NCBI RefSeq assembly: GCF_014466955.1 | Contig: NZ_AP023396.1 | Coordinates: 6,262,001-6,326,000, forward strand | Direction of reading: 5' to 3' | Origin: Nocardia wallacei | GTDB taxonomy: Bacteria; Actinomycetota; Actinomycetes; Mycobacteriales; Mycobacteriaceae | DNA length: 64,000 bases | Shown: positions 1 through 18,161 of the stretch, one piece after another | How the letters are laid out: every line of letters starts with the position of its first letter | How positions within the stretch are numbered: the stretch's first letter is position 1 | Translations under genes and position numbers: made by a program | Notes under the pieces: generated by a model | Database searches by the model: none | Told to the model about the DNA's origin: nothing | The model's input: the letters and a program-made list of their open reading frames with translations, nothing else

Positions 1-63
1 GACGAATTCGCCGCCGGTGCCGCCAGGATGCAGCGGTGGCACATGGCCGCGGTTGCGAGTTGA
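1..63 (+). CDS. C-terminal tail of an upstream gene (partial)
   Basis: Frame 1 is open from the first base to a TGA at 61-63 and encodes a 20-residue tail ending HMAAVAS. It is too short to assign to a family. If real, the upstream gene lies on the same strand as the modification cassette that starts at 224 and could be part of it. An open frame of 20 codons is weak evidence in high-GC DNA. Confidence 0.35.
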   Translation, partial: DEFAAGAARMQRWHMAAVAS

Positions 64-223
64 TCGTTCTTCCGCAGACGGCCGTGCCGAGCGAGTGCTT
101 TAGACCCTAGAACTGCTTGTGGGCGAAGGGAAGGATAGTCAGACAGCGCGGATCGGGGTCAGCGCGTGGTATACGGGGGATCGCTGGTAAGGCAGTGGTC
201 ACGATGAGATAGTTGAGAGTGCC

Positions 224-1186
224 ATGGAATTTTCCACCTACCAGCAGGCGGCGCACGAGACGAGTCAGCTTCCTGCAGGCGGGCCGCGGGCGGCGCTTCA
301 GCCGATGCTGGGATTGGCCTTTGAGACCGGTTCGATTCTCAATGTCTATATGAGATATCTCCGCGACGGTATTGATATGGCCTCGAACCTGGAGATTTTA
401 CGCGAAGAGATCGGTGACCTTCTCTGGTACGCGGCAGAAATCGCGACGGCGAGTAATCTGGATTTGGACGAGATCGCGGTCACGAATCTTAGCCGCATAC
501 GGGATAGGTACCCCAGCCCCGCGCAGCCGGTTGATCTGACGAGCCTTCCGATCTACGACGCCGATAGCCCCGAAACTGAGCGTTTCCCCCGCACGATGGT
601 GTTCGAGTTTATCGAGCGTACATCGCCAAGTGGGTCGGTTGTGGCAGCTATGGAACTCGTTAGCGCCGAACCCAACGCGTTCAAGGACGGGCCAGTGAGT
701 CTGCCGAACGGCAAAACGGCAGGCTATGCCGTCGGGAAGCAGCTCGGCGATCCGCTGACAGACAACTCTCGTCATTCGGACGGCTACCGCTACCACGATG
801 CCATTCATTTCGGGTTTATGGCGGTGTTCGGATGGTCGCCGAACTCGCGGGCGCTGCTGCGTATCAAGCGAAAATCTGATCCAGTGAAAGATGAGTGCGA
901 GGACGGCGCGCGGGCCATCTTCGCTGAGGAGGGGCTGGCGGCCGTGTTGTCGAAACTGGCCAAGCGGCGACTCGGGTTTCTGCATGAGATGAGTGTTGAC
1001 GGCGAAGTTGTCGAGGCAGCGAGAGCTGCTGCCGCTGACCTCGAGGTCGCCGATGCGCCAGCCTGGCTGTGGCGGCGGGCAATCGCAAATGGATTCCGCG
1101 CCTACCATCAACTGATAGAAAATAAAGGTGGGTACCTGATCGCCGACTTGGATCAGCGGACGCTGACCTACAAGAAAGTCCACTAG
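224..1186 (+). CDS. MazG-like nucleotide pyrophosphohydrolase with C-terminal MazG-associated domain
   Basis: This 320-residue protein has a MazG/all-alpha NTP pyrophosphatase-like segment at about residues 25-105. Its helix pair ends in REEIGDLLWYAAEIA, the E-x-x-D type metal-binding pattern of the superfamily. The C-terminal 190 residues form a second domain with the stretch SDGYRYHDAIHFGF, which I associate with the domain that follows MazG in base-modification gene clusters. The family hydrolyses (d)NTPs to the monophosphate. In this setting it could supply or clear an unusual nucleotide, but that is inference. The ATG at 224 is preceded by a weak GAGAG. It is the first full gene of a four-gene run that includes DUF1599-like, TylF-like and thymine-pyrophosphorylase-like genes. 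Confidence 0.75.
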   Translation: MEFSTYQQAAHETSQLPAGGPRAALQPMLGLAFETGSILNVYMRYLRDGIDMASNLEILREEIGDLLWYAAEIATASNLDLDEIAVTNLSRIRDRYPSPAQPVDLTSLPIYDADSPETERFPRTMVFEFIERTSPSGSVVAAMELVSAEPNAFKDGPVSLPNGKTAGYAVGKQLGDPLTDNSRHSDGYRYHDAIHFGFMAVFGWSPNSRALLRIKRKSDPVKDECEDGARAIFAEEGLAAVLSKLAKRRLGFLHEMSVDGEVVEAARAAAADLEVADAPAWLWRRAIANGFRAYHQLIENKGGYLIADLDQRTLTYKKVH

Positions 1187-1208
1187 TCGAGAGCGGAATG
1201 AGAGGTTC

Positions 1209-1802
1209 TTGGCCGAGGTAGCCGATAGTGCGTCGATAAAGGGCGCTATTATGCGCCTTCATGCTGCAAAGAATGCCGCGTACCGGGATGCCTGGAAGAA
1301 GCGCGGTGAAGTAATCGGCGTCATGGCGAACCTTGCCCGAAAGGTCGACCGCCTGGAGTACGTATCGGTTGACGCGATTGCCACAGCGGACGAATCGATG
1401 GCCGATACAGCCATCGATCTTCTCGTCTACTCGGTCAAATATCTGACATTCCTCGCCGATCGGGATACGTCGATAGCCGAGCACCTATACGGCGATACCG
1501 AAGTATCACCGCCATACAGCGATGGAACTGCCGGGTTCGACAGTCTGGTCACCCGCATCCAATTTTCGACGGACGGCCCACTCCCATCCTCACTCCCGGC
1601 AGCCGTTCAGGGAGTGGCGGCCACGTTTAACCAGCTTGAGCAATGCTTCGTTCCCGGTCGGCCTACGCCGATCGAGCGACGATTTCGCCTGGGGCAGCAG
1701 CTGGTGCGTGACGCGGTGAAGCTGGTTGGGATGTTGGTCCGTCACGCGCCCGAACAGCTCGTCCTCGCGTTTCATCCCTACGATCAGGGCAGGTACCAGT
1801 GA
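1209..1802 (+). CDS. DUF1599/Nmad1-like nucleotide-modification-associated protein
   Basis: The protein has 197 residues and starts with TTG, preceded by a purine-rich GAATGAGAGG. The N-terminal 90 residues carry the pattern KNAAYRDAWKKRGEVIGVMANLARKVDRLE and ADTAIDLLVYSVKYLTFL. This resembles the DUF1599 fold, called nucleotide modification associated domain 1 in comparative genomics of base-modification systems. The C-terminal half is less conserved and I do not recognise it. The gene is 22 bp behind the MazG-like gene and overlaps the next start by four bases (GTGA), so the genes are probably translated together. A role in handling modified nucleotides is inferred from family and context. 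No enzymatic activity is assigned. Confidence 0.65.
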   Translation: MAEVADSASIKGAIMRLHAAKNAAYRDAWKKRGEVIGVMANLARKVDRLEYVSVDAIATADESMADTAIDLLVYSVKYLTFLADRDTSIAEHLYGDTEVSPPYSDGTAGFDSLVTRIQFSTDGPLPSSLPAAVQGVAATFNQLEQCFVPGRPTPIERRFRLGQQLVRDAVKLVGMLVRHAPEQLVLAFHPYDQGRYQ

Positions 1803-2758
1803 ATACACCCGATTACGACAAGCTACTGGAAGACGTGGAGCACCACATTATGGGAGGTGCGCGGTCGATCGGCATCATCGGAGCCACACGTACGACAGCG
1901 CGCCTGATCGAATCCCTGACGCCGTCCGGGCTCATCGCCACTGTGGAGGCTGCCTACACAGCCGAACCGTGTCTCCTGTCGCTCACGGTGCCGGTTCGGA
2001 CATTCGAAGCACTGGCGAAGGCCGAGCACGACGTCTTGGTCGTCGCCGCCGATGAGGAAAAGGAGGACCTGCTCCTTGCCGCGCTCCCGTTCGTCACCAA
2101 TGCGCCGAAGGTAATCGTCGCGGGCTACGAGCACCTGGGGTTCCGTGATCCCGTGTTCCGCGAGGAACTGATGCAGGTGCTGGCGCCGAGTCTGGCGAAC
2201 GGGTACCCCAACAGCCTGATCCATCTGTATCAGTGCCTGCTCAACGCCCATCGGCTCGGGGTCGACGGCATCGTTGCCGAGTTCGGGATGTACAAGGGCG
2301 GCACGACGATGTTCCTGTCGCGAGTGATCGAGCGGCTGGGCCGACCGTGGCCGGTGTTCGGCTTCGACACCTTCGGCGGCTTCCCGCCACGTCGCAGTGC
2401 CCTGGACATGTACGACCACCCGGACTGCGTCTTCACCGATTTGCCTGGCGTTGAGCGCTACCTGGCTGGGCGAAATATCCGCATCTTGCCGGGCGACATC
2501 GTAGAAACGGCGCCGCGGCTCGCGGCACACGACGTCATCCTGAGCTTCATCGACACCGACAACTACAGCTCAGCCAAGGCCGCGCTCGAAGTCGTCCAAG
2601 ACCGTACTGTGGTCGGTGGTGCCATCGTGTTCGATCACTTCACCGGCGTGGACCGCTTTCGTTACACTCTCGGCGAACGTATCGCAGGCCGCCCGCTCCT
2701 CGATGATCCGCGATACTTTCACCTCCACGGCACAGGCGTATTCTATCGGCAGCGGTAA
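1799..2758 (+). CDS. TylF/macrocin-type SAM-dependent methyltransferase with N-terminal Rossmann-like domain
   Basis: The protein has 319 residues. An N-terminal Rossmann-like part (GIIGATRTTARLIESL, about residues 24-39) resembles a nucleotide- or sugar-nucleotide-binding module. From about residue 150 it matches the TylF/MycE class of methyltransferases: AEFGMYKGGTT is the SAM loop, GFDTFGGFPP follows, and FIDTDNYSSAK gives the acidic metal-binding motif. TylF relatives methylate sugar hydroxyls or phosphorylated substrates. The GTG start lies inside the GTGA overlap with the upstream stop, indicating translational coupling. In this operon it may decorate a modified base, nucleotide or sugar, which is inference from neighbours. 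Confidence 0.75.
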   Translation: MNTPDYDKLLEDVEHHIMGGARSIGIIGATRTTARLIESLTPSGLIATVEAAYTAEPCLLSLTVPVRTFEALAKAEHDVLVVAADEEKEDLLLAALPFVTNAPKVIVAGYEHLGFRDPVFREELMQVLAPSLANGYPNSLIHLYQCLLNAHRLGVDGIVAEFGMYKGGTTMFLSRVIERLGRPWPVFGFDTFGGFPPRRSALDMYDHPDCVFTDLPGVERYLAGRNIRILPGDIVETAPRLAAHDVILSFIDTDNYSSAKAALEVVQDRTVVGGAIVFDHFTGVDRFRYTLGERIAGRPLLDDPRYFHLHGTGVFYRQR

Positions 2759-2779
2759 TTATTGTAGAATGGACACAGG

Positions 2780-3802
2780 ATGAAACGGCCGCCAACTCCC
2801 CGAAAGGGGATCTACGAATACTATTGGCACTTCGCCTCCGAGCGTCAGCGCGCGTTCGAACGTCGCGTGAGTGGCATGCAGTGGCCGTGGACCGATGACA
2901 CTATCTTGCAAGAATTCAAATTCTGCAACGTCTTTCGGGCAGCCGATCGGGTGAGTCAGTACATGATCCGGGAGGTCTGTTATCACGCCGAACCGTGCTC
3001 GCCGGAAGATAGACTCTTCCAGATTACAGCCTTTCGCACATTCAGCAAGATCGAAACCTGGCGCTCCGTGCGCGACATACTCGGCCACTACCCAACACTT
3101 GACGATCTCGCGAGTGGCGCATTCACCAAGGCGCTGGATGAAAGCAAGCAACGTAACGGCGGCCTCTATACGGGTGCGTTCATTCTTTGTGCTACCGATG
3201 CTTACGGCCAGGGGCTGAAACATCTCAATCACGTCGAACTATTTCGGCACATGTTCCTGATCGACGGGCTCGGCGATGAACTCCTCAAAGCCCAGTCATT
3301 ACGAGAAGTCTACGACCTGCTACACCGGTATCCACTCATGGGCGACTTCATGTCGTACCAAACCTCGATCGACCTGAACTACTCGGATCTGATCAACTTC
3401 TCCGAAAATGAATTCACCCAGGCCGGGCCAGGCGCTCTGCGCGGGATCAAGAAATGTTTCGAAGATCTAGGCGACTACACCCCGACCAATGTCATTCTGT
3501 GGATGGTCGAGCACCAACAGCAGGAACTGAAACGTCTCGGACTGCCTTTCGATGGCTTGTGGGGCCGACCGCTTCATGCTATTGACTGCCAGGGCCTGTT
3601 CTGCGAAACCGACAAGTACTGCCGCCAGGCCGCGCCCGAAATCGCCAGTGCCCGCAAGCGCATCAAAGCTAAATTCTCCGCGACGCCCGAACCGATCCAA
3701 CTGTTCTTCCCGCCGAAATGGGGAATCAATGAAAAGCTCCCGACCAGCGGCGTATTCGGTGATGCGGTAGTAACCACTTCGGAGCAGACAGCTCTGTTCT
3801 AA
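2780..3802 (+). CDS. alpha-glutamyl/putrescinyl thymine pyrophosphorylase / HMUDK-helical-type DNA base hypermodification protein
   Basis: The protein has 340 residues. The conserved opening IYEYYWHFASERQ followed by PWPWTDD and KFCNVFRAADRVSQYMI is the signature I associate with the aGPT-PPlase / 5-hydroxymethyl-dU DNA kinase helical-domain group. That group is a DNA-glycosylase-like all-alpha family found in phage thymine hypermodification clusters. Characterised phage systems make hypermodified thymines through phosphorylated 5-hydroxymethyl-dU in DNA. Which clade this belongs to, and whether it is catalytic or only DNA-binding, cannot be settled by eye. It lies 21 bp after the methyltransferase and ends the cassette. 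No P-loop kinase or thymidylate hydroxymethylase is visible in the window. They could lie to the left. Confidence 0.7.
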   Translation: MKRPPTPRKGIYEYYWHFASERQRAFERRVSGMQWPWTDDTILQEFKFCNVFRAADRVSQYMIREVCYHAEPCSPEDRLFQITAFRTFSKIETWRSVRDILGHYPTLDDLASGAFTKALDESKQRNGGLYTGAFILCATDAYGQGLKHLNHVELFRHMFLIDGLGDELLKAQSLREVYDLLHRYPLMGDFMSYQTSIDLNYSDLINFSENEFTQAGPGALRGIKKCFEDLGDYTPTNVILWMVEHQQQELKRLGLPFDGLWGRPLHAIDCQGLFCETDKYCRQAAPEIASARKRIKAKFSATPEPIQLFFPPKWGINEKLPTSGVFGDAVVTTSEQTALF

Positions 3803-3872
3803 GCCCAACCGGACACGCCACGGCTCCGAATACCTGACGGCCGGACCGAAGAAGTTCCGCCGTGCAGGGCAA

Positions 3873-3922
3873 CCAGCCTGCTGGCGTCGGGTACCCCTTC
3901 GCGCCGGACTCCAGCAGGCTGG
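3873..3922. terminator. Inverted repeat after the modification cassette
   Basis: Perfect 12-bp arms CCAGCCTGCTGG (3873-3884) and CCAGCAGGCTGG (3911-3922) are separated by 26 bases. They lie between the end of the cassette (3802) and the convergent lsr2 stop (3977). There is no T-tract, so a two-sided terminator is plausible but unproven. Confidence 0.4.
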
Positions 3923-3976
3923 CTCCGGATACTGCCGGCTGTTTCACGCCGGGCGGAATCCTGGCGTCACGGTCAA

Positions 3977-4312
3977 CTAGCTCGCCTTGTTGTACGCCTC
4001 CACGACATCTGCCGAGATGCGGCCGCGGCTGGACACGTCGTAGCCGTTCTTCCGAGCCCAATCCCGGATCGCGCCAGTCTGCTCCTTGTCGGCTGCGGTG
4101 CGACCACCAATCTTGCTCTTGCCCCTCGGGATTCGACCGACCTTGCGGGCGGGACCAGTCCACTGCTCGAACGCCTCACGCAGCTTGCCCGCGTTCTTCA
4201 TCGACAGGTCGATCTCGTATTCCACGCCGTCGACTCCGAAGCGCACTGTCTCCTCAGCCTTGGATTTACCGTCGTAGTCGTCGATCAGCTCGACGGTGAC
4301 CTTCTTCGCCAT
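3977..4312 (-). CDS. lsr2: Lsr2-family nucleoid-associated protein
   Basis: The 111-residue protein begins [15 protein letters not shown], the canonical Lsr2 dimerisation start. It ends with [19 protein letters not shown], the DNA-binding domain with the RGR minor-groove (AT-hook-like) loop. Lsr2 coats AT-rich, often foreign DNA and silences it, the actinobacterial counterpart of H-NS. I chose the ATG at 4312 over an upstream in-frame start at 4387 because it matches the family N-terminus and has a GAGGGG ribosome site just upstream. It sits beside foreign-looking genes, so it may be an extra paralogue brought in with the island and not the chromosomal copy. That cannot be decided from this window. 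Confidence 0.9.
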
Positions 4313-4441
4313 GCGTATCGCCCCTCGTTTCAGAAATGCTGGAGCGGTCAGTTTAGAACGCCGCCCGACCAGGTGCTCGACCGGCACGCGGGAACGCCTG
4401 CGGCTTTCCGCGTGCGCCGAGGAATCCGGAGCGGATAATCC

Positions 4442-4771
4442 CTACCGCTCGCCCGCTGCTTCGGCTTCGACGTGTCGGCCTGCCGCGGCGAGGATGGCTT
4501 GAAAGTCTTTGCCTAGTGCGTTCGTGAGGTGCTGCAGATCAGCGACAAGGTCGACCAGGGCAGTATCAATTTCCTGGGTATCGCCAACCCGCTTAGCGTA
4601 GTGCAGCAGGGTATCTGCCGCCCACAGGGTGCGAGTGTCAATGTCCGCCCCAAGGTCGTCGTCGGTGATGTGGCGCTGATCGAGGTTGATATCCCGGAGG
4701 TGTTGTTCCAGTTCTGGAACAGTCTTTGCCTCAATGGGTGTTGCTTTGTGGTTCGATGCTGCTGGGGGCAT
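4442..4771 (-). CDS. Hypothetical acidic helical protein
   Basis: This 109-residue protein is rich in Asp, Glu and Ala with predicted long helices (ELEQHLRDINLDQRH and LVDLVADLQHLTNALGKDFQ). There is no signal peptide or membrane segment. An AAACGGAGATCAC stretch upstream of the ATG can serve as ribosome site. Its general style resembles the 144-residue protein at 8496-8930, which also has a helical core that counts residues between Ala/Leu heptads, but the two are not clearly homologous. I do not recognise the family. Confidence 0.55.
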   Translation of the reverse strand: MPPAASNHKATPIEAKTVPELEQHLRDINLDQRHITDDDLGADIDTRTLWAADTLLHYAKRVGDTQEIDTALVDLVADLQHLTNALGKDFQAILAAAGRHVEAEAAGER

Positions 4772-5007
4772 ACATGTGATCTCCGTTTACTGTCCGAATT
4801 ATATAACTACCTCTGTTGAACATCAATAGGGAATGTAGATAATACGTCACACAAGCGTCGTGGCGACGAAACTACATCTCTTTCTTCGCGGATCCTGTTG
4901 ATGACAACCGCGAAGAGAGTTAAGACTGAAACATAGGGAAGGTGCACAGCACCCGCCAAAGAGGCACTTGTGTCCCCTCCCTAACATCAAGCGCAAGAAG
5001 GTAAAGG

Positions 5008-5033
5008 TTGACCGGATTATCTAATCCGGTCAA
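5008..5033. promoter_or_regulatory. 26-bp perfect palindrome just upstream of the gene at 5045
   Basis: Arms TTGACCGGATTA (5008-5019) and TAATCCGGTCAA (5022-5033) are fully complementary around a TC centre. The element ends 11 bases before the ATG at 5045 and is followed by AAATAGGATCG, which contains the likely ribosome site. It could be an operator for a dimeric repressor, or an mRNA hairpin affecting translation of the downstream gene. Confidence 0.55.
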
Positions 5034-5044
5034 AATAGGATCGA

Positions 5045-5629
5045 ATGGAAGACGAATATCCCAAATACGAACTCCTCGCAAAACACCTCGATCCACAGTT
5101 CGGCAATATCTACCGATACAACGTCGGCAATGGCGGCGACGTTGGCTTTGACATTCAAGAGTGGACACCAGAACTACGCGAGGTCATCAAGAACTACCTA
5201 CTGCACCACTGCCCGGGCGCCGTGCTCGACCAATTGTTCCTCGACGATGCCGGGCGGTCGATCGAACCGAGTCAACGACTTGCCGCGGTCGAGGGCCTCA
5301 TTGCCGGTTTGGAGCCGTGGGAGATTGCCTTCGATGTCCGCCGCGCTGCCGTCTCGGCCGTCCCCACGCTCCATGATCTGATCGGTCATCTTGAGGAATG
5401 GCCGAGCGAGGACGATCGCCTCGACGCCGAAACCTGGCTTGAAGCTCATAGCGATAACGTTGACTGGCAGGCGCTCGCCAGAGTGACCAACCACTTCGAA
5501 CTGCTCCCGGTCACCATGCTCTCCGGCGCTACCCGCCAACCGTATGCTGACGATCTTGTCCGCAGGCTGACGCCAGCCGAACTGCTGTTCGCGTGGGTGA
5601 GGTTCCCCCGCTTTCACGGAGAGCTCTGA
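5045..5629 (+). pseudogene. Hypothetical protein gene truncated by the IS3 element
   Basis: The frame encodes 194 residues. Its last codons (FPRFHGEL) lie inside the left end of the insertion sequence that begins at about 5596, and the TGA at 5627-5629 is supplied by the element. The authentic coding part is therefore about 183 residues: acidic, with repeated Trp/Leu helices such as LHDLIGHLEEWPSEDDRLDAETWLEAH. The pattern loosely suggests an immunity-type or alpha-helical repeat protein, but I do not recognise it. No continuation is evident after the right end of the element at 6890. The gene is preceded by a 26-bp palindrome. Confidence 0.6.
5596..5611. repeat. Left terminal inverted repeat of the IS3 element
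   Basis: GGTGAGGTTCCCCCGC is the exact reverse complement of 6875-6890. Similarity continues imperfectly inward, with GGAGAG on both sides. Confidence 0.85.
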
Positions 5630-5662
5630 CGTGGTCCGATAGGGGCCGGAAGGAGTTCATCA

Positions 5663-5968
5663 GTGGCAGCATCGAAGAAGTATCCGGACGAGTTGAGGGC
5701 TCGGGCGGTCAGGTTGTATCGGGATGCGGATCCCAAGCCGACGATCCGGAAGCTGGCCGCGCAGCTGGGGGTGCATCACGAGGCTCTGCGGAACTGGATC
5801 CGCCAGGCCGAAGCGGACGCCGGCGAGCGTAGCGATCGGCCGACGACCGACATGGCCGAAGAGAACAAGCAACTACGCAAGCGGGTCGCTGAACTCGAAC
5901 GCGTGAACGCCGTATTGCGTGATGCGAGTGCGTATTTCGCGTCGGAGCCCGGCCAGACCCGGAGGTGA
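5663..5968 (+). CDS. IS3-family transposase OrfA (HTH, leucine-zipper protein)
   Basis: The 101-residue product starts at a GTG. It has a helix-turn-helix of the InsE/HTH_Tnp_1 type (KYPDELRARAVRLYRDA and IRKLAAQLGVHHEALRNWI). A C-terminal leucine-zipper-like helix follows (EENKQLRKRVAELERVNAVL), used for dimerisation and for assembly with OrfB. The stop overlaps the OrfB start in GTGA at 5965-5968, with OrfB in the -1 frame. OrfB can thus be made by coupled initiation or by the programmed -1 frameshift typical of this family. Confidence 0.92.
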   Translation: MAASKKYPDELRARAVRLYRDADPKPTIRKLAAQLGVHHEALRNWIRQAEADAGERSDRPTTDMAEENKQLRKRVAELERVNAVLRDASAYFASEPGQTRR

Positions 5969-6858
5969 TCGTGCGGTTCGTGAAAGATCACCCGCAGCAC
6001 TCGGTCGAGCTCGTATTGCGGGTGCTGGGCATCGCGTCGTCGACGTTCTATGGATGGCTGGCCCAGGCCAAGAACCCCTCGCGGCGGCGGCTGGCCGACG
6101 AACAATTGCTGGCTGAGATCGTCGATATCCACACCAGCTCCGGCGGCACCTACGGATCGCCGCGAGTGCACGCGATGCTGCGCCGCCGCGGTATCGCGGT
6201 CGGCCGCAAACGAGTCGAGCGGCTGATGCGGCGGGCGGGGCTGCAGGGCGCGTTCCTGCGTAAGAAATGGCGTATTCCCTCGACGCGGCAGGACCGCCGC
6301 GCCACGCCGGCACCGGATCTGGTCAACCGTGACTTCACCGCGGACACCCCGGACCGGTTGTGGGTGGCGGATGCGACGCGGATCCCGACCGGCGAGGGCG
6401 TGTTCTGGCTGGCGGCGGTCCGGGACGCGTTCTCCAACCGGATCGTGGGCTGGAAATGCTCCGACCGCTGCGACACCGAGCTGGTACTCGGGGCCCTGGA
6501 ATACGCGGTGTGGGTGCGGGATGTGCGTGACGGACAACTGGTCCATCATTCCGATCGCGGCTCGACCTACACAGCCATTCGGTTCGCAAACAGGTTGGCC
6601 GACAACGGAATAGCCCAGTCGATGGGGTCGGTCGGAGACAGTTACGACAATGCGCTCATGGAGAACTTCTTCTCCACACTGAAGACCGAGCTGGTGTACC
6701 GGAACTCCTGGCGCACAAGGGAAGACGCGGAGAACGCCTTGTTCTCCTACATCGACGGCTGGTACAACACCCAGCGCATCCAGAAGAAGCTGGATTGGCG
6801 ATCACCCGACGAGTACGAAGCCAGCTACCATCAACGGGTTCTGGCCGGAACCAGATAA
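5965..6858 (+). CDS. IS3-family transposase OrfB (DDE integrase domain)
   Basis: The 297-residue product has an N-terminal HTH_21-type segment (LLAEIVDIHTSSGGTYGSPRVH) and an rve integrase core. Catalytic acidic residues are visible in LWVADATRIPTG (first D), LVHHSDRGSTYTA (second D) and YDNALMENFFSTLKTEL (E), spaced as in the IS3 group. An SD-like GGAGG directly precedes and overlaps the GTG start at 5965, inside the end of orfA. The frame is uninterrupted, so the element appears functional. Confidence 0.93.
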   Translation: MIVRFVKDHPQHSVELVLRVLGIASSTFYGWLAQAKNPSRRRLADEQLLAEIVDIHTSSGGTYGSPRVHAMLRRRGIAVGRKRVERLMRRAGLQGAFLRKKWRIPSTRQDRRATPAPDLVNRDFTADTPDRLWVADATRIPTGEGVFWLAAVRDAFSNRIVGWKCSDRCDTELVLGALEYAVWVRDVRDGQLVHHSDRGSTYTAIRFANRLADNGIAQSMGSVGDSYDNALMENFFSTLKTELVYRNSWRTREDAENALFSYIDGWYNTQRIQKKLDWRSPDEYEASYHQRVLAGTR

Positions 6859-6874
6859 TCCGCTCTCCGGCTCG

Positions 6875-6890
6875 GCGGGGGAACCTCACC
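6875..6890. repeat. Right terminal inverted repeat of the IS3 element
   Basis: GCGGGGGAACCTCACC matches the left end in inverted orientation over all 16 bases and lies 16 bp after the orfB stop. Confidence 0.85.
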
Positions 6891-6996
6891 TTATCTCCCG
6901 GTAACCGGCGGGGGCAACAATACACACTCAGGGGTGTATAGTTCGCCGAGCCGATATAGATACACTGGAATCATTAGCGCTTTAGATACATAGACC

Positions 6997-7044
6997 CACA
7001 GAAGGAGTCGGGTTATCCGCGAACACGACCCGACTCCCCCTGTG
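6997..7044. terminator. Long interrupted hairpin, probable terminator of the small gene at 7063-7275
   Basis: A 10-bp stem GGAGTCGGGT/ACCCGACTCC (7004-7013 and 7028-7037) is extended by an outer CACAG/CTGTG pairing (6997-7001 and 7040-7044) across an internal two-base bulge on each side. It lies 18 bp beyond the stop of the minus-strand gene at 7063. There is no U-tract on either side, as is common for actinobacterial terminators. Confidence 0.6.
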
Positions 7045-7062
7045 TAGCTGTGCGTGATCTCC

Positions 7063-7275
7063 TTAGCCGACCAAGCTCCGGATCACGTGCAGCAGCCACC
7101 CCGCCAGTTCGGCGAGAGCCCTTCTTGCCGTGCTGGCGGGGTTCTCCCACAGCTTCGGCAGGGTCCGAACCGTGACATCAACGATCGTCACGACGGTTCG
7201 GAACACCAGAAACAGCTTCCACCACCGGCTGGCACCATCCCGAACGTGCCGGGATGGATCTGACGGGTCTGCCAT
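7063..7275 (-). CDS. Small basic amphipathic or membrane-associated protein
   Basis: This is a 70-residue protein with a very good ribosome site (GAAAGGAAGGTA directly before the ATG). The middle (WKLFLVFRTVVTIVDVTVRTL) is hydrophobic enough for one membrane-associated helix, and Arg/Trp residues flank it. I do not recognise a family. It lies between the IS element and a structured intergenic region and has its own apparent terminator at 6997-7044. Strong initiation signals make it a likely real gene despite its size. Confidence 0.6.
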   Translation of the reverse strand: MADPSDPSRHVRDGASRWWKLFLVFRTVVTIVDVTVRTLPKLWENPASTARRALAELAGWLLHVIRSLVG

Positions 7276-7301
7276 TACCTTCCTTTCGACTCACACAGTT
7301 G

Positions 7302-7885
7302 AGCCGCCACCGGAGCGGCGGCTGTAGCCACGCAGTTCGCGGCTACGCTCATGGACGCCAAACAGGCGGACGCACAGTGCAAGTCGAAGGATCGGCATGG
7401 CCAATCCGGTCAGACGGCATGAGTTTACGCATACCACCCTTGGGCCGTGTCAAGCGTCTCGACGCGAACCGGCGCGGCGGACGGATAAATGAGCTGGCGA
7501 GGGCAGACGACGTCATTATCGCCAATAGAGAATGCCCGCTCGGTGACGAGCGGGTTTGTTACCTTTGGTCCGCCCACCGATACCTCCGCAGCCGACACAG
7601 GCCCGTTTTCAGGCCCCGTCGGGCCGCGTGTCGGCCGTTCGCCCGACAACCGGCAACCGTGCCCGTTGTCGGTTACACAACGCGAAAACCGCTGCCACAG
7701 CGGTTGCTTCACGTGGCGCACTGTCGGCGTAACCGCCCGTCCGATCGTTCGTCCCAGCGCCCGACGCGCCGCCCGATAAGCGGATTGAGCCTGATGCCTC
7801 GCCGTTCTTAACTGAGATCGGCTCCACCCGAGCCAGCGGCCTCAGCAGGGCGACCCGCCCGACATACCCGTCGGTTGGGTCGCCC
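7302..7885. other. Structured non-coding region with at least five hairpins
   Basis: No convincing gene lies between 7276 and 7970. The stretch contains AGCCGCC/GGCGGCT at 7302-7308 and 7317-7323, and CCCGCTC/GAGCGGG at 7535-7541 and 7548-7554. It also has CCGACAAC/GTTGTCGG at 7643-7650 and 7665-7672, and AACCGCTG/CAGCGGTT at 7687-7694 and 7698-7705. A nested GGGCGACCC/GGGTCGCCC lies at 7848-7856 and 7877-7885. Such density suggests a plasmid-type control region (origin, transfer origin or structured leader) ahead of the operon at 7971. No replication or mobilisation protein is visible, so the role is open. Confidence 0.45.
7535..7560 (+). terminator. Rho-independent-like hairpin with T-rich tail
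   Basis: A 7-bp GC-rich stem CCCGCTC/GAGCGGG around GGTGAC is followed immediately by TTTGTTA on the plus strand. No plus-strand gene precedes it, so it may be an attenuator or terminate a short RNA made in the structured region. Confidence 0.45.
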
Positions 7886-7970
7886 GTGACGGGCCGCATC
7901 GTCGGTGTCCTGCGGCCGAACCCGTAAGCGCAGCAAGCGTTTACCGGCCGCTCGCACCGAGGAGGACGCG

Positions 7971-8384
7971 ATGCCCGAACCGTCGAGCAAGGAAATCACC
8001 CTTGCCATACGGATTGACACCGCCCGGCACGCCCAGCTCACCTGGATTGCCGAACTGCGCGGCAGCAGTCTGAAAGCCGAGTGCTTCCACGCTGTCGATG
8101 CCTACATCGAAGCCGCCAAGAACGATCCCGACCTGATGGCACGGGCCAACGCCGCCCGCGCCGCCATCGAGGAAGAGGCCCGCGCCCGGCAAGCGGCGAT
8201 CGACAATCTGTTCACTGCGGCGCCGCCACCACCGCCCGACGACGATGACGAACACCCGGTCATCGAGACATCGGAAACGGCCGACAAAGCCGAGGGGGCC
8301 GAAGGCGAACCACCGCAGGGCAATCGCCGTGCGCGGGGGCGCCGCGGCGGACAACAGGCAGGAGGTGAGCAGACGGACAGCTGA
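7971..8384 (+). CDS. Putative ribbon-helix-helix (CopG/Arc-like) DNA-binding protein
   Basis: The 137-residue protein starts with ITLAIRIDTARHAQLTWIAELRGSSLKAE. This is a beta strand followed by two helices in the manner of a ribbon-helix-helix domain. A helical segment rich in Ala/Glu follows, then a Pro/Asp-rich and a Gly/Arg-rich low-complexity tail. I chose the ATG at 7971 because of the GAGGAGG ribosome site, although the frame is open further upstream. Such proteins regulate plasmid copy number, transfer or toxin-antitoxin genes. Here it heads the run leading to ardA, so autoregulation of that operon through the structured DNA upstream is a reasonable guess. Confidence 0.65.
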   Translation: MPEPSSKEITLAIRIDTARHAQLTWIAELRGSSLKAECFHAVDAYIEAAKNDPDLMARANAARAAIEEEARARQAAIDNLFTAAPPPPPDDDDEHPVIETSETADKAEGAEGEPPQGNRRARGRRGGQQAGGEQTDS

Positions 8385-8495
8385 GCCTGGCTCAGCGCCC
8401 GGTGCAAGAGGCCGGTGGGCAGCCGTTCGAGGAATGCGTGAGACCTCACCGCTGTCCACCGGCCAACACTCAAAGCTAACAAGAGGAGAAAGATC

Positions 8496-8930
8496 ATGAG
8501 CGAGAAATACCCACATACACAACACAATTCAGGCGAGAACCCGCTCGACCAGCCCGTCGATGCGGCTCCGTCCACCGAGTCCGACGACCGCGAGCAGCAG
8601 CTCCGTTGGGACATCAGCGACGCGCTGCTCAAAGCCATTGACGACGCCGTCGTGCACCGAAGCGACCAACAGCCCGCGGCCACCGCCGAACTGGCGCTGG
8701 CACTCGTTCAGCTGACCCACTCGTTCGACCTGAACAGCGAGACAGGCAAGCACGCCCTCGCCACGCGGGCCAACTACATCAGCGACCAGTTGAATGGACT
8801 GGTTCGCCACTACGACGATCTGACCACCAGCGATCTGCAAGGTGGTGTGGAAGCGCTGGCGTTCATGCTGGTGAGCAACCAGCTCCCCACCGACAATGCC
8901 GAGTCATCGGAAGGAGGTGAGCATGAATGA
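8496..8930 (+). CDS. Hypothetical plasmid-type helical protein
   Basis: The 144-residue protein has a clear ribosome site (AAGAGGAGAAAGATC before ATG). The first 35 residues are polar and probably disordered. The rest looks alpha-helical (DISDALLKAIDDAVV and ATAELALALVQLTHSFDLNSETG). No known motif was found. Its stop overlaps the ardA start by eight bases (ATGAATGA), which ties it to ardA in one transcript. Confidence 0.6.
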   Translation: MSEKYPHTQHNSGENPLDQPVDAAPSTESDDREQQLRWDISDALLKAIDDAVVHRSDQQPAATAELALALVQLTHSFDLNSETGKHALATRANYISDQLNGLVRHYDDLTTSDLQGGVEALAFMLVSNQLPTDNAESSEGGEHE

Positions 8931-9582
8931 GCGATTTCCAAACGCACTGGGCCACAATGAAATCGGTGTCGGAGAACAACTGCCAGCGGCCGAGGCCGAC
9001 CAGGCCCATGAGCGGGAGCCGCAGCTCAACCCACGCATCTACGTCACTGCCGGCCTGCCCCTGCGGGCTGAACTCACCCGGGGCGCCTGGTTCGACATGG
9101 CCCGCGATCCGAATGCCGTTCGGGCCGACCTGTATGCCGTCTTCGGCGACCACAACGCCGTCGAACCCGAGGGACTCTACATCTGGAACTACGACGACTT
9201 CGCCGACTTCCAGGTGACCACCGGCGCGATCGGCCTGGAGGAGGCTCAGAGCATCGAACTGCTGTCGCAAGTTGCCCGCGGTATCGCTGAACACGGCCCA
9301 GCCTTCGCCGCCTGGGCCAGCGCCCACGAGGATGATCCGCGCCTGTTCGATCACTTCGCTACCGCCTACGAAGGCCACTACGACTCACTGGCTGCCTATG
9401 TGCGCGAACAATTTCGACCGGCTGACTACGACGAGATCCTGGACCGCACACTCCCCGCGGAAGTTCGGCCCTACGCCAGCATCGACTACGAGGCGATCGG
9501 CGAGGAATGGCAACGCGACATGGACATGGTGGTGTTCCCCGCCACGGGTGGCGGGGTGTGGATTTTCGATGAGAGGGCCTAA
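8923..9582 (+). CDS. ardA: ArdA-family antirestriction protein
   Basis: The 219-residue protein has the ArdA pattern: PRIYVTAGLPLRAELTRGAWFDM at the start, an acidic surface throughout, WNYDDFADFQV mid-protein, a repeated helix-strand module, and a C-terminus ending VWIFDERA. ArdA dimers mimic the shape and charge of B-DNA and block type I restriction-modification enzymes, usually protecting plasmids and conjugative elements on entry. The start at 8923 is preferred over 8896 because GGAGGTGAGC directly precedes it. The gene overlaps the end of the upstream frame. It marks this region as derived from a transferred element. Confidence 0.85.
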   Translation: MNERFPNALGHNEIGVGEQLPAAEADQAHEREPQLNPRIYVTAGLPLRAELTRGAWFDMARDPNAVRADLYAVFGDHNAVEPEGLYIWNYDDFADFQVTTGAIGLEEAQSIELLSQVARGIAEHGPAFAAWASAHEDDPRLFDHFATAYEGHYDSLAAYVREQFRPADYDEILDRTLPAEVRPYASIDYEAIGEEWQRDMDMVVFPATGGGVWIFDERA

Positions 9583-10009
9583 CCTTCCCGCCACGTCCTA
9601 CTCGCCGTGATCGATGCGCAGGGCCACCAGGCCAGGTTCTGCTCGACTCGACCGCAAGCCCACAAGCCGTCACGGCGGAGCCACAATAGGCCCACCCAGC
9701 CCAACCAATCGCCACATAGGCGACCAGCAAACTCTTGGATAGAGGCTAAAGTCCCAATTAAACACACAGCCTCTCCGTAACAATCGCAGGACCGGAAACG
9801 CTCATATTGGTACATGACCACGCAGTTGCGACCACGGATCCGCAAGGAGGAGGCTACATCCAGCATCGACTATCGACGGGACCGTATACCATTGATCTTT
9901 TGTTTCTTCATGAATTTTGGCATAATTTATTCATAGTTTAAAGTGAGGTAAAAGTGACTCAAATTCGTGACCATTCACACGGATCCCTCTCGGTACGAAA
10001 GCAGCAATC
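9583..10009. promoter_or_regulatory. Intergenic region with AT-rich promoter-like DNA ahead of CBASS
   Basis: No gene is visible. From about 9890 to 9955 the DNA becomes strikingly AT-rich for this genome (for example GGCATAATTTATTCATAG). This is expected for a promoter and also for an Lsr2 binding site. The CBASS operon begins at 10010. Exact -35 and -10 elements cannot be assigned with confidence. Confidence 0.4.
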
Positions 10010-10900
10010 ATGACCGCCCTCGAAGATATGCTCGGCGGATGGATTGGCCCCTCAACCTCAACGGAGCAGGACAAACAGGATCGAACGGAGAGGATGATCC
10101 GGGATGCCGTCAAAGAGCACCCCGCATTTGATTCGTGCGGCCTTACGGTCTACGCGAAGGGCTCCTACGCCAACAACACCAACGTCAGGGCCGACAGCGA
10201 CGTGGACATCGCTGTGCAATGCAGCGATGTCATATATTGGGATGAAGCGACAGATGACGCGCATTCGGGAGGAAGCCCCTACACCGGCATCTGGACTCCA
10301 GCAAGGCTCCGTTCAGAGCTAAAGACCGCGCTCGAAGCGAAATTTCCTGACCAAGTAGACTCTTCTGGATCCACGGCTTTTCGAATTCACTCGAGCACCG
10401 CGCGAGTCGACGCAGACGTCGTCCCTTGTTTCGACTATCATTACTACTTCTCGCCGACACACTTCCGCGAAGGAGCCAAGGTATTCAAGAAGGACGGAGC
10501 ATCACTTATAAACTATCCTCAGCAGCAGCTCGACAACGGTGTCGCGAAGAACACTCGCACAAACCGGCGATACAAGCAGGCCGTCCGCATCATGAAACGT
10601 GTCGAAAACAGAATGGTCGAAGACGACGTTCATCGAGAAGTGCCGTCGTTCTTTGTTGAGTGTCTTGTCTACAACTGCCCAGATAGCGTTTTACGTCGAT
10701 CAACGTGGACTGAGGTTGTGCGGGGTGTCATCATACACATCTGGAATGAATTGGAGGGATCCGAACCGTCCGAAGAGCCAGAAAGGTGGCGAGAGGTCAA
10801 CGAATGCAAGTATCTCTTCCACAGCGGCCAGGCGTGGACACGCCAAGACGGGCGTGATTTCGCAAAAGCGGCTTGGAATTACCTGGGATACAGCTCGTGA
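10010..10900 (+). CDS. CD-NTase (CBASS cyclic-oligonucleotide synthase)
   Basis: The 296-residue protein has a polymerase-beta-type nucleotidyltransferase core. GSYANNTNVRADSDVDIAV (about residues 48-66) carries the G-S helix start and the D-x-D metal ligands. STARVDADVVPCF near residue 130 supplies the third acidic residue. Length and order match the cGAS/DncV-like nucleotidyltransferases, which sense phage infection and make a cyclic nucleotide signal. The stop overlaps the GTG start of the next gene (GTGA), so cyclase and effector are co-translated. Codon use is visibly less GC-rich than the core genes, consistent with horizontal transfer. The exact clade and product are not assigned. Confidence 0.88.
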   Translation: MTALEDMLGGWIGPSTSTEQDKQDRTERMIRDAVKEHPAFDSCGLTVYAKGSYANNTNVRADSDVDIAVQCSDVIYWDEATDDAHSGGSPYTGIWTPARLRSELKTALEAKFPDQVDSSGSTAFRIHSSTARVDADVVPCFDYHYYFSPTHFREGAKVFKKDGASLINYPQQQLDNGVAKNTRTNRRYKQAVRIMKRVENRMVEDDVHREVPSFFVECLVYNCPDSVLRRSTWTEVVRGVIIHIWNELEGSEPSEEPERWREVNECKYLFHSGQAWTRQDGRDFAKAAWNYLGYSS

Positions 10901-11517
10901 AGCACACCATCACTATCCGTGTCATCGTCGGAGTGGTGGTCTTGATAATCGTTGGGGCTACCTGGCTACAGGACGGACGGCCTGATCTCGCACTACTCAA
11001 GCTATTCTCTGCTGCCGTCCTTGCATGCGTGGCCGTACTCAATATTTGGGATTTTTGGCTTTGGCGAATCCCGCTAATTCAAAAAATACCGGGGGTGCCA
11101 CGAAGCATACGAGGAACGTGGAAAGGCACCCTCACTTCCTTCTGGATTGACCCGACGACTGGCGCTAAACCTGACCCGAAGCCTGTCTACCTGGTAGTAC
11201 GACAGACTGCCTCGCGTGTCATTGTGAAACTTCTGACTAACGAGTCACGATCCTCCTCGGCCATTGCCAGCGTGTCCGTGGTGGACGACTCCTGCATGCT
11301 CGCTTACTTGTACCTCAACAAACCTGATATGCGCGTTGAGCATCGCAGCCGCATTCACCACGGATCTACCGTATTAGATGTTTCAGGCAAGCCACCCCGA
11401 AGTTTGAAAGGACGCTATTGGACCGATCGGGATAGTAAGGGCGAGCTAGAGTTCGCCGAACATAGAAAAAAGTTGGCCGATAGCTTTGATGAAGCGGCAG
11501 AACTCTTTGCCGAATGA
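10897..11517 (+). CDS. cap15: Cap15-like CBASS effector (two membrane helices plus beta-barrel domain)
   Basis: The 206-residue product has two hydrophobic helices (about residues 6-24 and 32-52). A beta-rich domain then begins with VPRSIRGTWKGTLTSFW and continues in alternating strands (VYLVVRQTASRVIVKLLT). This is the architecture of the SMODS-associated 2TM beta-strand effector, Cap15. In that family the barrel binds the cyclic nucleotide and the membrane part oligomerises to disrupt the inner membrane, causing abortive infection. I chose the GTG at 10897 overlapping the cyclase stop over the ATG at 10873, which would lie inside the cyclase. With only cyclase and effector present and no Cap2/Cap3, this is a type I (minimal) CBASS. 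Confidence 0.82.
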   Translation: MKHTITIRVIVGVVVLIIVGATWLQDGRPDLALLKLFSAAVLACVAVLNIWDFWLWRIPLIQKIPGVPRSIRGTWKGTLTSFWIDPTTGAKPDPKPVYLVVRQTASRVIVKLLTNESRSSSAIASVSVVDDSCMLAYLYLNKPDMRVEHRSRIHHGSTVLDVSGKPPRSLKGRYWTDRDSKGELEFAEHRKKLADSFDEAAELFAE

Positions 11518-11652
11518 TGACGGAGAGTTTAGCGGGCTGCATGGTCGCCCATACTACTGACGGGCTTAGTCAGTCATTTCGCACGCGAGCGATCACCGAT
11601 GATCGACAGATGGCATTCAACGCCATCAATCGATTCTTACCCCAATAATCTA

Positions 11653-12190
11653 TCAGGGGTTATTGAAAGGCTGAACCTTCAATACTTGATTTTCAAGGAT
11701 GGTTTCCAACTCGTTTAGGGCGATAGGTGCCCTACTAATGAGCATAGGAGTGCAGACAGGAAGCCCTTGCAGATCTAGAGCAGCCTCCAATCCCGGCGTG
11801 CGTTGGAATGTCCTGAAGAATGGATCAATAACTATCCACAGCATCCTTTCATGAGATGACGGATCCTTCAGCGTCACATAGCGAACCATTCCATGTCTTT
11901 TGGAAATAGTTCCAACATACGATAGCTGATTCCCCGCAGGGTCGGTGTCGGATCCCGTTGTTCGGAGGAGAAGTCGGCCCGTGAGCAAAGAGTATTTTCA
12001 CACGGTAATGCGCTTCGATAATCGTTCCGTCGCCGACCGTGCTTCGATGGTACGCCCAAAGGTTACCGAGAAACTTCTTCCTTGACGACTGGGTCGTATA
12101 GTTGATTAGGATGTATAACTGCCTGGCTACCAACGGAACGAGTCCAAGAGAAAAGCCCGTCATTACTTCTGGCCAGTTTATGTCGTTCAA
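11653..12190 (-). pseudogene. Frameshifted gene for a membrane-anchored beta-rich protein
   Basis: Two adjoining frames make one protein after a single shift at about 11985-12003. The first part begins at a likely TTG (12190, CGGAG five bases upstream) as LNDINWPEV, with a membrane helix (GFSLGLVPLVARQLYIL) and then FLGNLWAYHRS. The second frame continues GRLLLRTTGSDTD, GMVRYVTLKD and LWIVIDPFF and ends at 11653. Joining them needs skipping one base. The layout of one N-terminal helix followed by a G-x-W-type strand-rich domain recalls Cap15-like effectors, but the similarity is only architectural. It lies beside the CBASS operon on the opposite strand. A sequencing error cannot be excluded. 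Confidence 0.5.
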
Positions 12191-12594
12191 TGTGGCTCCG
12201 CGGCGGGTAATTGACTGATCGAGCGAATTGCATGTAGTCACCAGTTGTCGCACACCAATAGATTTCCCCCGTCTAGCCTTTAGACAACCACTGAACCTTA
12301 CCCAGCTTGGCATTCGCATCTCCATGCCACATCATGAAACGCCAGTCACTGTCCACCGGCTAGAGGAATAGGTCCTCAGTATGCACGGCAACGTGTAACC
12401 ACCATCCCGGCTGCTCTGCGCAATAGGCCACCATCGCTCACAACCCACTGGCTGGACAAGAGCCCATGACGAACGGGTTGAGGCCATGCTCAAATGGATA
12501 TCTTCCACTTGGAAGAGCAACTCAAAAGTCGAAATCGGAATATAAATGGCAACGGCTGAACCAGACCCGATTCCCATTTTGGGGACGTCTGGTT
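12191..12594. other. Intergenic stretch without recognisable gene
   Basis: Only short overlapping frames with atypical composition occur here. I see no RNA gene or repeat. It separates the frameshifted membrane gene from the HTH gene. Confidence 0.5.
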
Positions 12595-13050
12595 CTACTT
12601 TCTCCTTGCCACCGACTCCCGCATCTTCACCCCTCGCCGTAGCAGCGCCAACCGCACCGTGCCAGCATCCGCGCCCAGCTTCACTCCAACCTGCTTGAGA
12701 GTCAGACCCTCCACATACAGCTCGGCCGCCCGGTCGACCTGCTCCTCACTGAGCCCCTGCTGTCGCATCGGCACGCCCATCCGGTGCAGGTGCTTGCTCA
12801 CGGTTTGACGCTGGATCGAGAATTTCTCGGCCAACTGATACACCGTCAGACCCCGCGTGTAGTCCCGCGCCAGCTCGGCCTTCTCGGCATCCGACAGCTT
12901 CCGGTTTCGCGGCGACATCGGCACCACGGGGCGATCAACACCCTGTTCAACCTCAGCCTGTGCCTCCGCTAACAGGTTTGAAAGCCCCTGGCCTGCGGCA
13001 ACGAGATTGGAGCTGTGCCTCAGAAACCGCACCTCGAGAAGCCTTGGCAT
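12595..13050 (-). CDS. Helix-turn-helix protein, recombinase-associated type
   Basis: The 151-residue protein contains two HTH-like repeats. The first is LARDYTRGLTVYQLAEKFSIQRQTVSKHLHRMGVP. The second is AELYVEGLTLKQVGVKLGADAGTVRLALLRRGV. This double-HTH arrangement with the leader QGLSNLLAEAQAEV recalls small actinobacterial proteins found next to, or derived from, serine recombinases. No resolvase catalytic domain is present. The frame is open to 13212, but MPRLLEVRFLRH at 13050 looks like the natural start. It sits at the right edge of the accessory region, which fits a relic of a mobile element. Confidence 0.6.
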   Translation of the reverse strand: MPRLLEVRFLRHSSNLVAAGQGLSNLLAEAQAEVEQGVDRPVVPMSPRNRKLSDAEKAELARDYTRGLTVYQLAEKFSIQRQTVSKHLHRMGVPMRQQGLSEEQVDRAAELYVEGLTLKQVGVKLGADAGTVRLALLRRGVKMRESVARRK

Positions 13051-13514
13051 CTCCACTGCCAGAGCTTTGTCATTTCGAGACTCCGATTCGTCCGTGGTAG
13101 AGGTCGCGGTCTCCGTTAACTTCCCACGGTTGCCCCACGATTGAGCGACCGTCCGCGAACCGTTCGAGCGCCGCACTCGAGTCAGGCACCAAAGTTCGCC
13201 GGACCACGCCAACCGCCAGCACGAGACGGGAAGGTCGGGGGACTCGTCGCCCTCGCTCCAGTCCTCAGCACCCAGTTCGATCAGGACCGCTGCCGCGAAC
13301 CGCGGAAGAAATGCGTCAAGTCACCAATTCTCACCACATCCGGATCGTGTCACATGAGGCGTCGGAAGCTCGGCCGGCGCGGCGGCAGTACGCGAACGGG
13401 CAATGGACTCGACATCCAGCCACAGGGGGGCAAAGCAGGGACGAAATGCCCTATTGCGGTGAGGGAATCGGAGGTCAGGCTTCGAGGCATCGATGTTTCA
13501 GATGAGGACAGATC
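13051..13514. other. Intergenic boundary between island and core genes
   Basis: I find no convincing gene in this 460-bp stretch. Several short overlapping frames exist on both strands without good starts. It marks the change from accessory genes to the core-like block beginning with the MmpS-like gene. Confidence 0.45.
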
Positions 13515-14030
13515 ATGACGATGCCGCCGCTGTTTCCACCGCCGACGGGGTCTGCGCGCCCCCCGAGGGAGCGTCTGCTGTGGCCCTGGATCCTGTTCGG
13601 CGCAACGGTTCTCGCTCTCTGTGGATATGCCGCGGTGATCAGTGCCGCCGTGGACTCGGCGATCCGGTCGTCCACCGAGACTCCTGCTGCGGTTGCTCCC
13701 CCCGCGGAGAGCCCCACACCCACTCCGGCGGTGCTGATCCCACCGTTGCCTGCCATACCGCAACCCAAAACCATTACCTACGAAGTCATCTCGAATGCCG
13801 CCCTGAATACTGTCGTCTACTTCGACGAGCGGTCCGATCTCGCGAAGGAGCCGGGTGTTCGCGCGCCGTGGACGAGGACCGTGGTGAACAATTCGGCGGT
13901 GACCGTCTCAGGGCTCAGTGCGCAGACCAACGGCACGTCGATCACCTGCCGGATCACCGTGGACGGGGTGGTGGCGGACGAACGGACCGCCACGGGCAGG
14001 TATGCGGCGGTCAATTGCTCCGCGCGCTGA
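13515..14030 (+). CDS. MmpS-like membrane protein
   Basis: The 171-residue protein has a short Pro-rich cytoplasmic start and one membrane helix (WPWILFGATVLALCGYAAVI, about residues 23-42). A Pro/Thr linker leads to an outside beta-rich domain (ITYEVISNAALNTVVYFDERS and TSITCRITVDGVVADERTATG). This matches the MmpS accessory-protein layout, including the final conserved Cys in a VNCSAR ending. MmpS proteins normally partner MmpL lipid or siderophore exporters. No mmpL gene is nearby, so this is a stand-alone copy. The ribosome site GAGGA precedes the ATG. Confidence 0.75.
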   Translation: MTMPPLFPPPTGSARPPRERLLWPWILFGATVLALCGYAAVISAAVDSAIRSSTETPAAVAPPAESPTPTPAVLIPPLPAIPQPKTITYEVISNAALNTVVYFDERSDLAKEPGVRAPWTRTVVNNSAVTVSGLSAQTNGTSITCRITVDGVVADERTATGRYAAVNCSAR

Positions 14031-14101
14031 TGTTCGCACGAATTGCCTTGCGCCCGAGGGGCTGTAGTATGAGCGTCTCGCGGTAGACGAAGGAGTGGGG
14101 G

Positions 14102-15258: not shown

Positions 15259-15296
15259 GCCGAACAGCGTAGCGGGTGCGCCCGGACGGAAATCAC

Positions 15297-15320
15297 TTTC
15301 ACTTAGGAAAGCTAATGAAA
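15297..15320. promoter_or_regulatory. Imperfect palindrome in the lepB/MFS divergent region
   Basis: TTTCACTTAG and CTAATGAAA face each other around GAAAG, with one unpaired base in the left arm. The site lies between the divergent starts of lepB (15258) and the MFS gene (15436), and the TTAG...CTAA halves weakly recall an iron-box core. It is a possible operator; the assignment is tentative. Confidence 0.3.

Positions 15321-15435: not shown

Positions 15436-18161
<2,726 letters not shown>

Follow-up and report, generated by a model that had tools for sequence, protein, structure and literature searches.

A 64-kb stretch of the Nocardia wallacei chromosome (positions 6262001-6326000 of the 7.89-Mb genome; "the window" below means this whole stretch) carries a cassette of four genes, which encode a MazG/MazG_C protein, an Nmad1-like protein, a TylF-type O-methyltransferase and an HMUDK_hel/aGPT-PPlase-family protein. 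We read this cassette as an operon of the thymine-modification type seen in phages, spread horizontally, whose use in bacteria is most likely anti-phage defence, and we hold this reading tentatively, at a probability of about 0.4. The four genes, in window coordinates, are as follows.

224..1186, forward strand: gene 1, MazG-type nucleoside triphosphate pyrophosphohydrolase domain and MazG_C domain, 320 aa (Pfam, PHROG)
1209..1802, forward strand: gene 2, Nmad1-like (DUF1599-like) protein, 197 aa from TTG or 183 aa from the ATG at 1251 (PHROG, sub-threshold Pfam)
1799..2758, forward strand: gene 3, TylF/MycF-type S-adenosylmethionine-dependent O-methyltransferase, 319 aa (Pfam TylF)
2780..3802, forward strand: gene 4, HMUDK_hel/aGPT-PPlase-family protein without a kinase domain, 340 aa (Pfam PF18723)

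The cassette and its four proteins

As the initial annotation had described, the four genes are co-directional and tightly spaced; the open reading frames (ORFs) were confirmed at these coordinates, with 22 bp between genes 1 and 2, an overlap of 4 bp between genes 2 and 3 and 21 bp between genes 3 and 4, and all four frames are open and retain the family-invariant residues. The family assignments proposed there stood for the MazG/MazG_C, TylF and HMUDK_hel/aGPT proteins, but that of gene 2 to DUF1599 stayed below the Pfam cut-off, with matches in PHROG only. Gene 1 matches MazG_C (PF18722) at 2.7e-53 (180.8 bits against a cut-off of 29.7), while its MazG match lies below the cut-off in Pfam and reaches 2.3e-29 with a MazG-like PHROG. 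The MazG fold and an acidic metal motif are present, the closest relatives of this domain are dCTPase-type house-cleaning enzymes, and the fold matches listed span residues 1-99, with no fold obtained for MazG_C. For gene 2, the DUF1599 (PF07659) match has an E-value of 0.23 (12.3 bits against a cut-off of 25), and a fused homologue in the related locus L013 scores 17.0, also under the cut-off; thus, we call the protein Nmad1-like only. It belongs to a conserved family (PHROG matches of 2.8e-8 to 3.7e-6), whose members in relatives are parts of fusions with ThyA-like (L015) or MazG (L013) domains. A second MazG fold in gene 2 was considered and dropped, as profile comparison gave it a probability of 0.2%.

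Gene 3 matches TylF at 8.8e-12 (45.3 bits against a cut-off of 23) and a methyltransferase PHROG at 1.4e-9; no Pfam family covers its N-terminal ~130 residues. The S-adenosylmethionine and metal motifs are retained, with EFGxxKGGTT present in all 12 aligned relatives and D-T-D in 11 of them, and the metal-binding residues are presumably those assigned in MycF. CalS11 and MycF, the solved structures related to gene 3, are antibiotic-tailoring enzymes, and its closest named full-length homologue is a Nocardia protein of 88% identity. Membership of gene 4 in the aGPT-PPlase/HMUDK families, on which the initial annotation had made its proposal depend, is clear, with matches to HMUDK_hel (PF18723) at 2.4e-97 and to a PHROG at 3.6e-56.

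Kinship with phage hypermodification genes

The suggested kinship with phage enzymes of thymine hypermodification is borne out by gene 4, which matches PUGT in predicted fold (see below) and, by tblastn, 492 of 50,697 phage records, including that of Pseudomonas phage M6. ORF055 of M6 is matched at 24% identity (1e-9), and its counterpart in the sister phage PAC4, annotated aGPT-Pplase1, is flanked by genes for a putative kinase and for Nmad5, and a thymidylate synthase follows two genes on. A MazG gene adjoins the aGPT homologue of Det7, and the aGPT protein of phage LuckyBarnes is identical at all 32 invariant columns of a 37-row alignment that includes it. That the set is a bacterial version, as had also been proposed, agrees with the remaining genes: gene 3 matches no phage record at 1e-10, and none of the 150 phage records matched by gene 1 covers 80% of it, the 15 listed covering the MazG third only.

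The fold matches listed for gene 4 are PUGT (8z2n), DUF2419 and helix-hairpin-helix (HhH)-type glycosylases. The uracil-DNA-glycosylase-like fold differs from the HhH glycosylase fold, and no such (Brig) fold is among these listed matches. An HhH glycosylase-like protein could also serve as a sensor, such that gene 4 detects hypermodified thymine of phage DNA, perhaps excising it as well, and the other genes prevent the host from incorporating such bases. The dCTPase-type relatives of the gene 1 MazG domain and the own genome, in which no dedicated hydroxymethylase was detected, would suit this explanation, as would the precedent of Brig1 and Brig3, which excise modified bases as defence (PMC11078745, PMC13160076). 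However, Brig1 is reported to be uracil-DNA-glycosylase-like (PMC11078745), TylF would have no obvious role, and residue D269 of gene 4, which is family-invariant, present in M6 and at a guess catalytic, is absent from the homologues of Det7 and SBSphiC; we regard a sensor or excision role as improbable.

Modules around the aGPT gene in related loci

To map the neighbourhoods, we searched 50 stretches by tblastn with 31 module proteins and obtained hits in 49; apart from the window copies, the stretches had been selected for holding aGPT. The neighbourhood, whose conservation the initial annotation had proposed to examine, recurs. All four genes stand in the same order in the window and at six other loci (L008, L009, L010, L012, L017 and L031); of these seven, the window, L008, L009 and L010 have open frames, and the others have a short Nmad1 (L012), a frameshifted aGPT (L017) or a stop in Nmad1 (L031). 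TylF stands beside aGPT in 13 loci (L008-L014, L017, L021, L031, L042, L059 and the window), and a ThyA-like gene is present as well in 9 of these; L008, among the remaining four, is a 6.3-kb contig.

The ThyA-like genes are of two types. The second type, which continues into Nmad1 within a single frame, was found in 10 bacterial loci and also in phage LuckyBarnes. In the clade of the window (23 rows of the tree below, together with the frameshifted L017), ThyA-Nmad1 occurs in 10 loci and MazG in 10 (partial in L014 and L021), never both beside aGPT, and 4 loci have neither; since the loci are related, this exclusivity is not a statistical test. The gene order in LuckyBarnes is ThyA-Nmad1, glucosyltransferase, glucosyltransferase, aGPT (the glucosyltransferases as named in the record's annotation), and that of a Sinorhizobium plasmid and of Glycomyces (L011) is ThyA-Nmad1, TylF, aGPT. 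As TylF thus occupies the position of phage enzymes whose names imply sugar transfer to a hydroxymethyl base, the simplest reading is that it would O-methylate a hydroxymethyl-uracil-type base or nucleotide.

The other type, a short ThyA-like protein, was found in 21 loci (L009, L013, L014, L017, L021, L028, L029, L031-L035, L037, L040, L043, L044, L059-L061, L064 and L065, of which L043 is a weak case and L033 and L035 are near-copies). An XRE regulator and an M78/ImmA-type peptidase accompany it in 21 of 21 and occur in no locus without it. One Cys is kept in 13 of 13 aligned sequences and would, by analogy, be the active-site Cys of ThyA. By tblastn, an acyl-carrier-like protein is present in 12 of the 21 loci and a holo-acyl-carrier-protein (holo-ACP) synthase in 9; in Pfam, the synthase is confirmed for L009 and L040, and L013 has a confirmed phosphopantetheine site, whereas the carrier candidate of L044 falls short of the cut-off and those of L037 and L040 match nothing, so that the carrier set is partly unconfirmed. 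The module lies beside aGPT in many phyla. A Rhizobium plasmid variant (L043:1845-7987) is annotated as holo-ACP synthase, helix-turn-helix, ImmA/IrrE, C1 peptidase, dCTP deaminase and hypermodification protein, and the L059 operon likewise has a C1-type peptidase.

TIR and Nmad2 genes occur together in 13 loci (L015, L016, L018, L020, L022, L028, L030, L036, L039, L042, L045, L062 and L063) and are adjacent in all 13, with Nmad2 confirmed by Pfam in L015, L028, L042 and L045. These loci look Thoeris-like, perhaps with a modified-base reader. Some of them add a second TIR and a SLOG gene, and a Parabacteroides plasmid (L045:5346-10504) has TIR, Nmad2, aGPT and a radical SAM gene consecutively. 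A thymidylate-kinase domain is fused to HMUDK_hel/aGPT in L029:7275-8981, L032:7251-8960 and L034:2850-4460, and precedes aGPT in L061:8209-8835.

MazG, the Nmad1-like protein and the ThyA-like and thymidylate-kinase-like domains of the relatives resemble enzymes of free nucleotides, and Thoeris-type TIR/SLOG proteins, of the kind found as partners in the relatives, use nucleotide signals. These features would fit an antiviral in which no DNA base is modified and a modified (for example, O-methylated) deoxynucleotide poisons the phage polymerase or acts as a signal; viperin products are a precedent for modified-nucleotide antivirals. We consider this somewhat unlikely, as the predicted fold of gene 4 is DNA-glycosylase-like, with a DNA-base transferase as its first match, and its homologues occur in thymine-modifying phages (M6; chemistry in PMC6449724). 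A small pathway for a nucleoside-type natural product, in which a ThyA-like hydroxymethylase, the TylF O-methyltransferase and a pyrophosphohydrolase would act as in the making of nucleoside antibiotics, draws on the antibiotic-tailoring structures related to gene 3, the carrier-protein-like and holo-ACP-synthase genes of related loci and the actinobacterial hosts. It is very unlikely in our view: the cassette has only four genes, its relatives across many phyla are accompanied by XRE and M78 or TIR genes, and gene 4 homologues reside in DNA-modifying phages.

Distribution and genomic island

PF18723, the gene 4 family, was found in 3 of 148 near-relative genomes, own genome counted, and the two other hits (L064 and L065) belong to the other clade, without TylF. 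Among 396 genomes drawn across the phylum, 6 have PF18723, own genome counted; in a like sample of 396, the TylF protein reached 1e-40 in two genomes (own and G318), both among these six and both with TylF immediately beside gene 4. Gene 4 recovered 34 loci from many phyla in a scan of GTDB, and TylF, used as a protein query, matched 1137 of the 7997 scored candidates at 1e-3. In the gene 4 tree, the window falls into a starred set of 23 rows (support 98/91) that holds all 12 TylF-linked rows; the other large set, also of 23 rows, has none. L013, L014 and L021 each hold one aGPT gene from each of the two sets, close together. The MazG upstream of TylF is lost or fragmented in L013 and L021, where the neighbouring module keeps a whole one, which suggests that neighbouring modules can work together; L014 has a shortened copy, and its sequence stops short of the neighbouring module.

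The cassette lies in a mobile-looking variable island, together with these context features:

1..16000, no strand: right part of a low-GC genomic island (GC bins, mobile genes, comparison with the relative G022)
3977..4312, reverse strand: Lsr2 nucleoid protein (Pfam Lsr2, 1.2e-26)
8896..9582, forward strand: ArdA antirestriction protein (Pfam ArdA, 4.9e-16)
10010..11517, forward strand: two-gene cyclic-oligonucleotide-based antiphage signalling system (CBASS), SMODS-type CD-NTase and Cap15 effector (Pfam SMODS 1.8e-4, under the cut-off; Cap15_CD_rec 6.7e-15)

Lsr2, ArdA and CBASS, named as neighbours in the initial annotation, are thus all present to the right of the cassette. In 2-kb bins, the GC content is 0.53-0.65 from ~6,242,000 to 6,278,000, against ~0.69 around it; the drop begins just past a tRNA-Lys gene (6241145-6241220), ~20.8 kb left of the window, which places the left end of the island near there. 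The sequence left of the window (L002:1-16181) holds a serine recombinase, Replic_Relax, a TraG/TrwB-like protein, an MT-A70 methyltransferase and an IS3-type transposase, with the tRNA-Lys gene beside them in L003. In G022, which has no PF18723 match, the same flanks (the tRNA-Lys side and a TetR-type side) are separated by 20 kb of unrelated genes, compared with 39 kb in the N. wallacei chromosome; a clean empty site was accordingly not found there. A search of the right-hand sequence for an att repeat from tRNA-Lys gave no 15-base match. The initial annotation had allowed for a larger system beyond the left edge, but no further gene of it was found there; going left, one meets a short ORF, then a DUF6879/DUF5753-XRE pair and genes of mobile elements.

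Such a setting raises the alternative that the cassette is decayed or orphan cargo of a mobile element with no present function. The IS3-type transposase of the island, the absence of the gene 4 family from 145 of 148 near-relative genomes and the broken state of several relatives (L017, L021 and L031) favour it, but in the window all four frames are open and sit close together or overlap, with the family-invariant residues preserved, and we give this alternative very little credence.

Points weighing against a thymine-modification operon used in defence

Several results weigh against our reading, and the first concern the supply of a substrate. In the own genome, PF00303 matches only the housekeeping ThyA, and no dedicated ThyA-like hydroxymethylase was detected; the short ThyA-like query likewise recovers just the housekeeping ThyA (1.5e-4). 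The genomes of L008, L010 and L012, whose completeness is not given, and that of L011 have no match to the short ThyA-like protein. L011 carries the ThyA-Nmad1 fusion, and PF00303 is matched nowhere in the genomes of L008 and L012. No kinase family is among the Pfam matches of the four cassette proteins; the phage kinase was not used as a query. The initial annotation had likewise noted no kinase or thymidylate hydroxymethylase in view. The Tmk-like protein of L061 has weak matches in the own genome (2.5e-4 and 2.7e-4), away from the cassette, and MazG-C is described as a predicted nucleotide kinase (PMC13092281). A TET/JBP oxygenase as a source of 5-hydroxymethyluracil had no match in 5 genomes, but the control also matched nowhere. 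A divergent ThyA-like gene of the L010 genome (L078:7174-8178) was rejected as a cassette partner, lying on a separate stretch with no other module protein nearby.

The second group concerns the proteins themselves. Gene 4 has no sequence match to any solved structure; PUGT, about 10% identical, is its top Foldseek match at an E-value of 0.047, which is not significant alone, and is top in VIA-align but tied with DUF2419 in Z, with HhH glycosylases next. Characterised TylF enzymes methylate sugars, so that an O-methylated base would be an extrapolation.

The third group concerns defence. None of the four cassette proteins matched PADLOC at E up to 1, and the neighbours of 11 TylF loci showed no enrichment (26 families and 61 proteins, against 102 and 94 in 8 control stretches), a crude count in which the control total is largely one kinase-like family (PD-T4-6). 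The role in phage defence that had been proposed from the neighbouring genes is suggested by the ThsB-type TIR, TIR, SLOG and Mrr genes beside related aGPT genes and by prior work, and a CBASS lies 6 kb from the cassette. A 5-hydroxymethyluracil kinase and a thymidylate synthase are among the newly validated defence domains of DefensePredictor, and systems with aGPT-PPlase, MazG, MazG-C and nucleotide-modification-associated domains are predicted there for defence without validation (PMC13092281, 2026). The cassette may be a little-studied anti-phage system, and we count its patchy spread in a mobile-looking island in favour of this.

Proposed mechanism

As a thymine-modification operon, the cassette might work as follows. 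The aGPT/HMUDK_hel protein, with its HhH DNA-glycosylase-like predicted fold, would bind DNA and present a 5-hydroxymethyl-uracil-type base, the exposed hydroxyl of which the TylF-type enzyme would O-methylate, in the slot held by glucosyltransferases in the related phage operon. MazG/MazG_C and Nmad1 may process the modified nucleotide pool. The ThyA-like enzymes of partner loci could supply the hydroxymethyl group; as the own genome is without a detected dedicated ThyA-like enzyme, the substrate there might be made by a host enzyme not yet recognised, or be brought in by a phage whose DNA contains 5-hydroxymethyluracil. What the data establish is the gene content, the families, the predicted fold, the co-occurrence and the position within a variable island, and the substrate, the target of O-methylation, the sequence of steps and the defence role are inferred. 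A version of this scheme that we think improbable is an immune cassette using the phage's own hydroxymethyl-uracil, or the nucleotide, in which the O-methyl cap would block protective hypermodification or mark the DNA for partner effectors like the TIR-Nmad2 and SLOG proteins of sister loci.

Thymine hypermodification has been described in phages; a parallel system run by bacteria from genomic islands, should it exist, would give the arms race between phage and host a further chemical level. The question of which module provides the base and which enzymes draw on it becomes testable through the map of modules (two types of ThyA-like protein, domains like thymidylate kinase, carrier protein and AcpS, XRE and M78, TIR-Nmad2-SLOG, and TylF).

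Comparison with known systems

Our literature search found no description of a MazG-Nmad1-TylF-aGPT system, although Iyer 2013 and Burroughs 2015, which reportedly hold key predictions in this field, may already list the neighbourhood. That the domain families are linked to defence is already in print; subject to those two studies, the TylF variant and the modular map are new here. The DefensePredictor systems name the same domain families, and a TylF methyltransferase is not named in the sections of that paper used here (PMC13092281). In the case of Thoeris (ThsB TIR with TIR/SLOG), no ThsB-type TIR, TIR or SLOG is among the genes scanned at the window locus; the likeness lies in the ThsB-type TIR, TIR and SLOG genes beside related aGPT genes. 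PUGT, the glycinyltransferase of phage PaMx11, acts on 5-phosphomethyldeoxyuridine (5-PmdU; entry title), a substrate that presumes a kinase.

The phage thymidine-hypermodification operons of M6 and its kin share the HMUDK_hel/aGPT protein, with an Nmad-type protein and thymidylate synthase nearby in M6/PAC4 and MazG beside aGPT in Det7, whereas the cassette has TylF, MazG_C and a location in a bacterial island, with no recognised kinase or dedicated ThyA-like enzyme found. The operon of the Brevibacterium phage LuckyBarnes shares aGPT and, with related loci, the ThyA-Nmad1 fusion with a tailoring slot between the two; it differs in having two glucosyltransferases where TylF stands, and the window has MazG and Nmad1 in place of ThyA-Nmad1.

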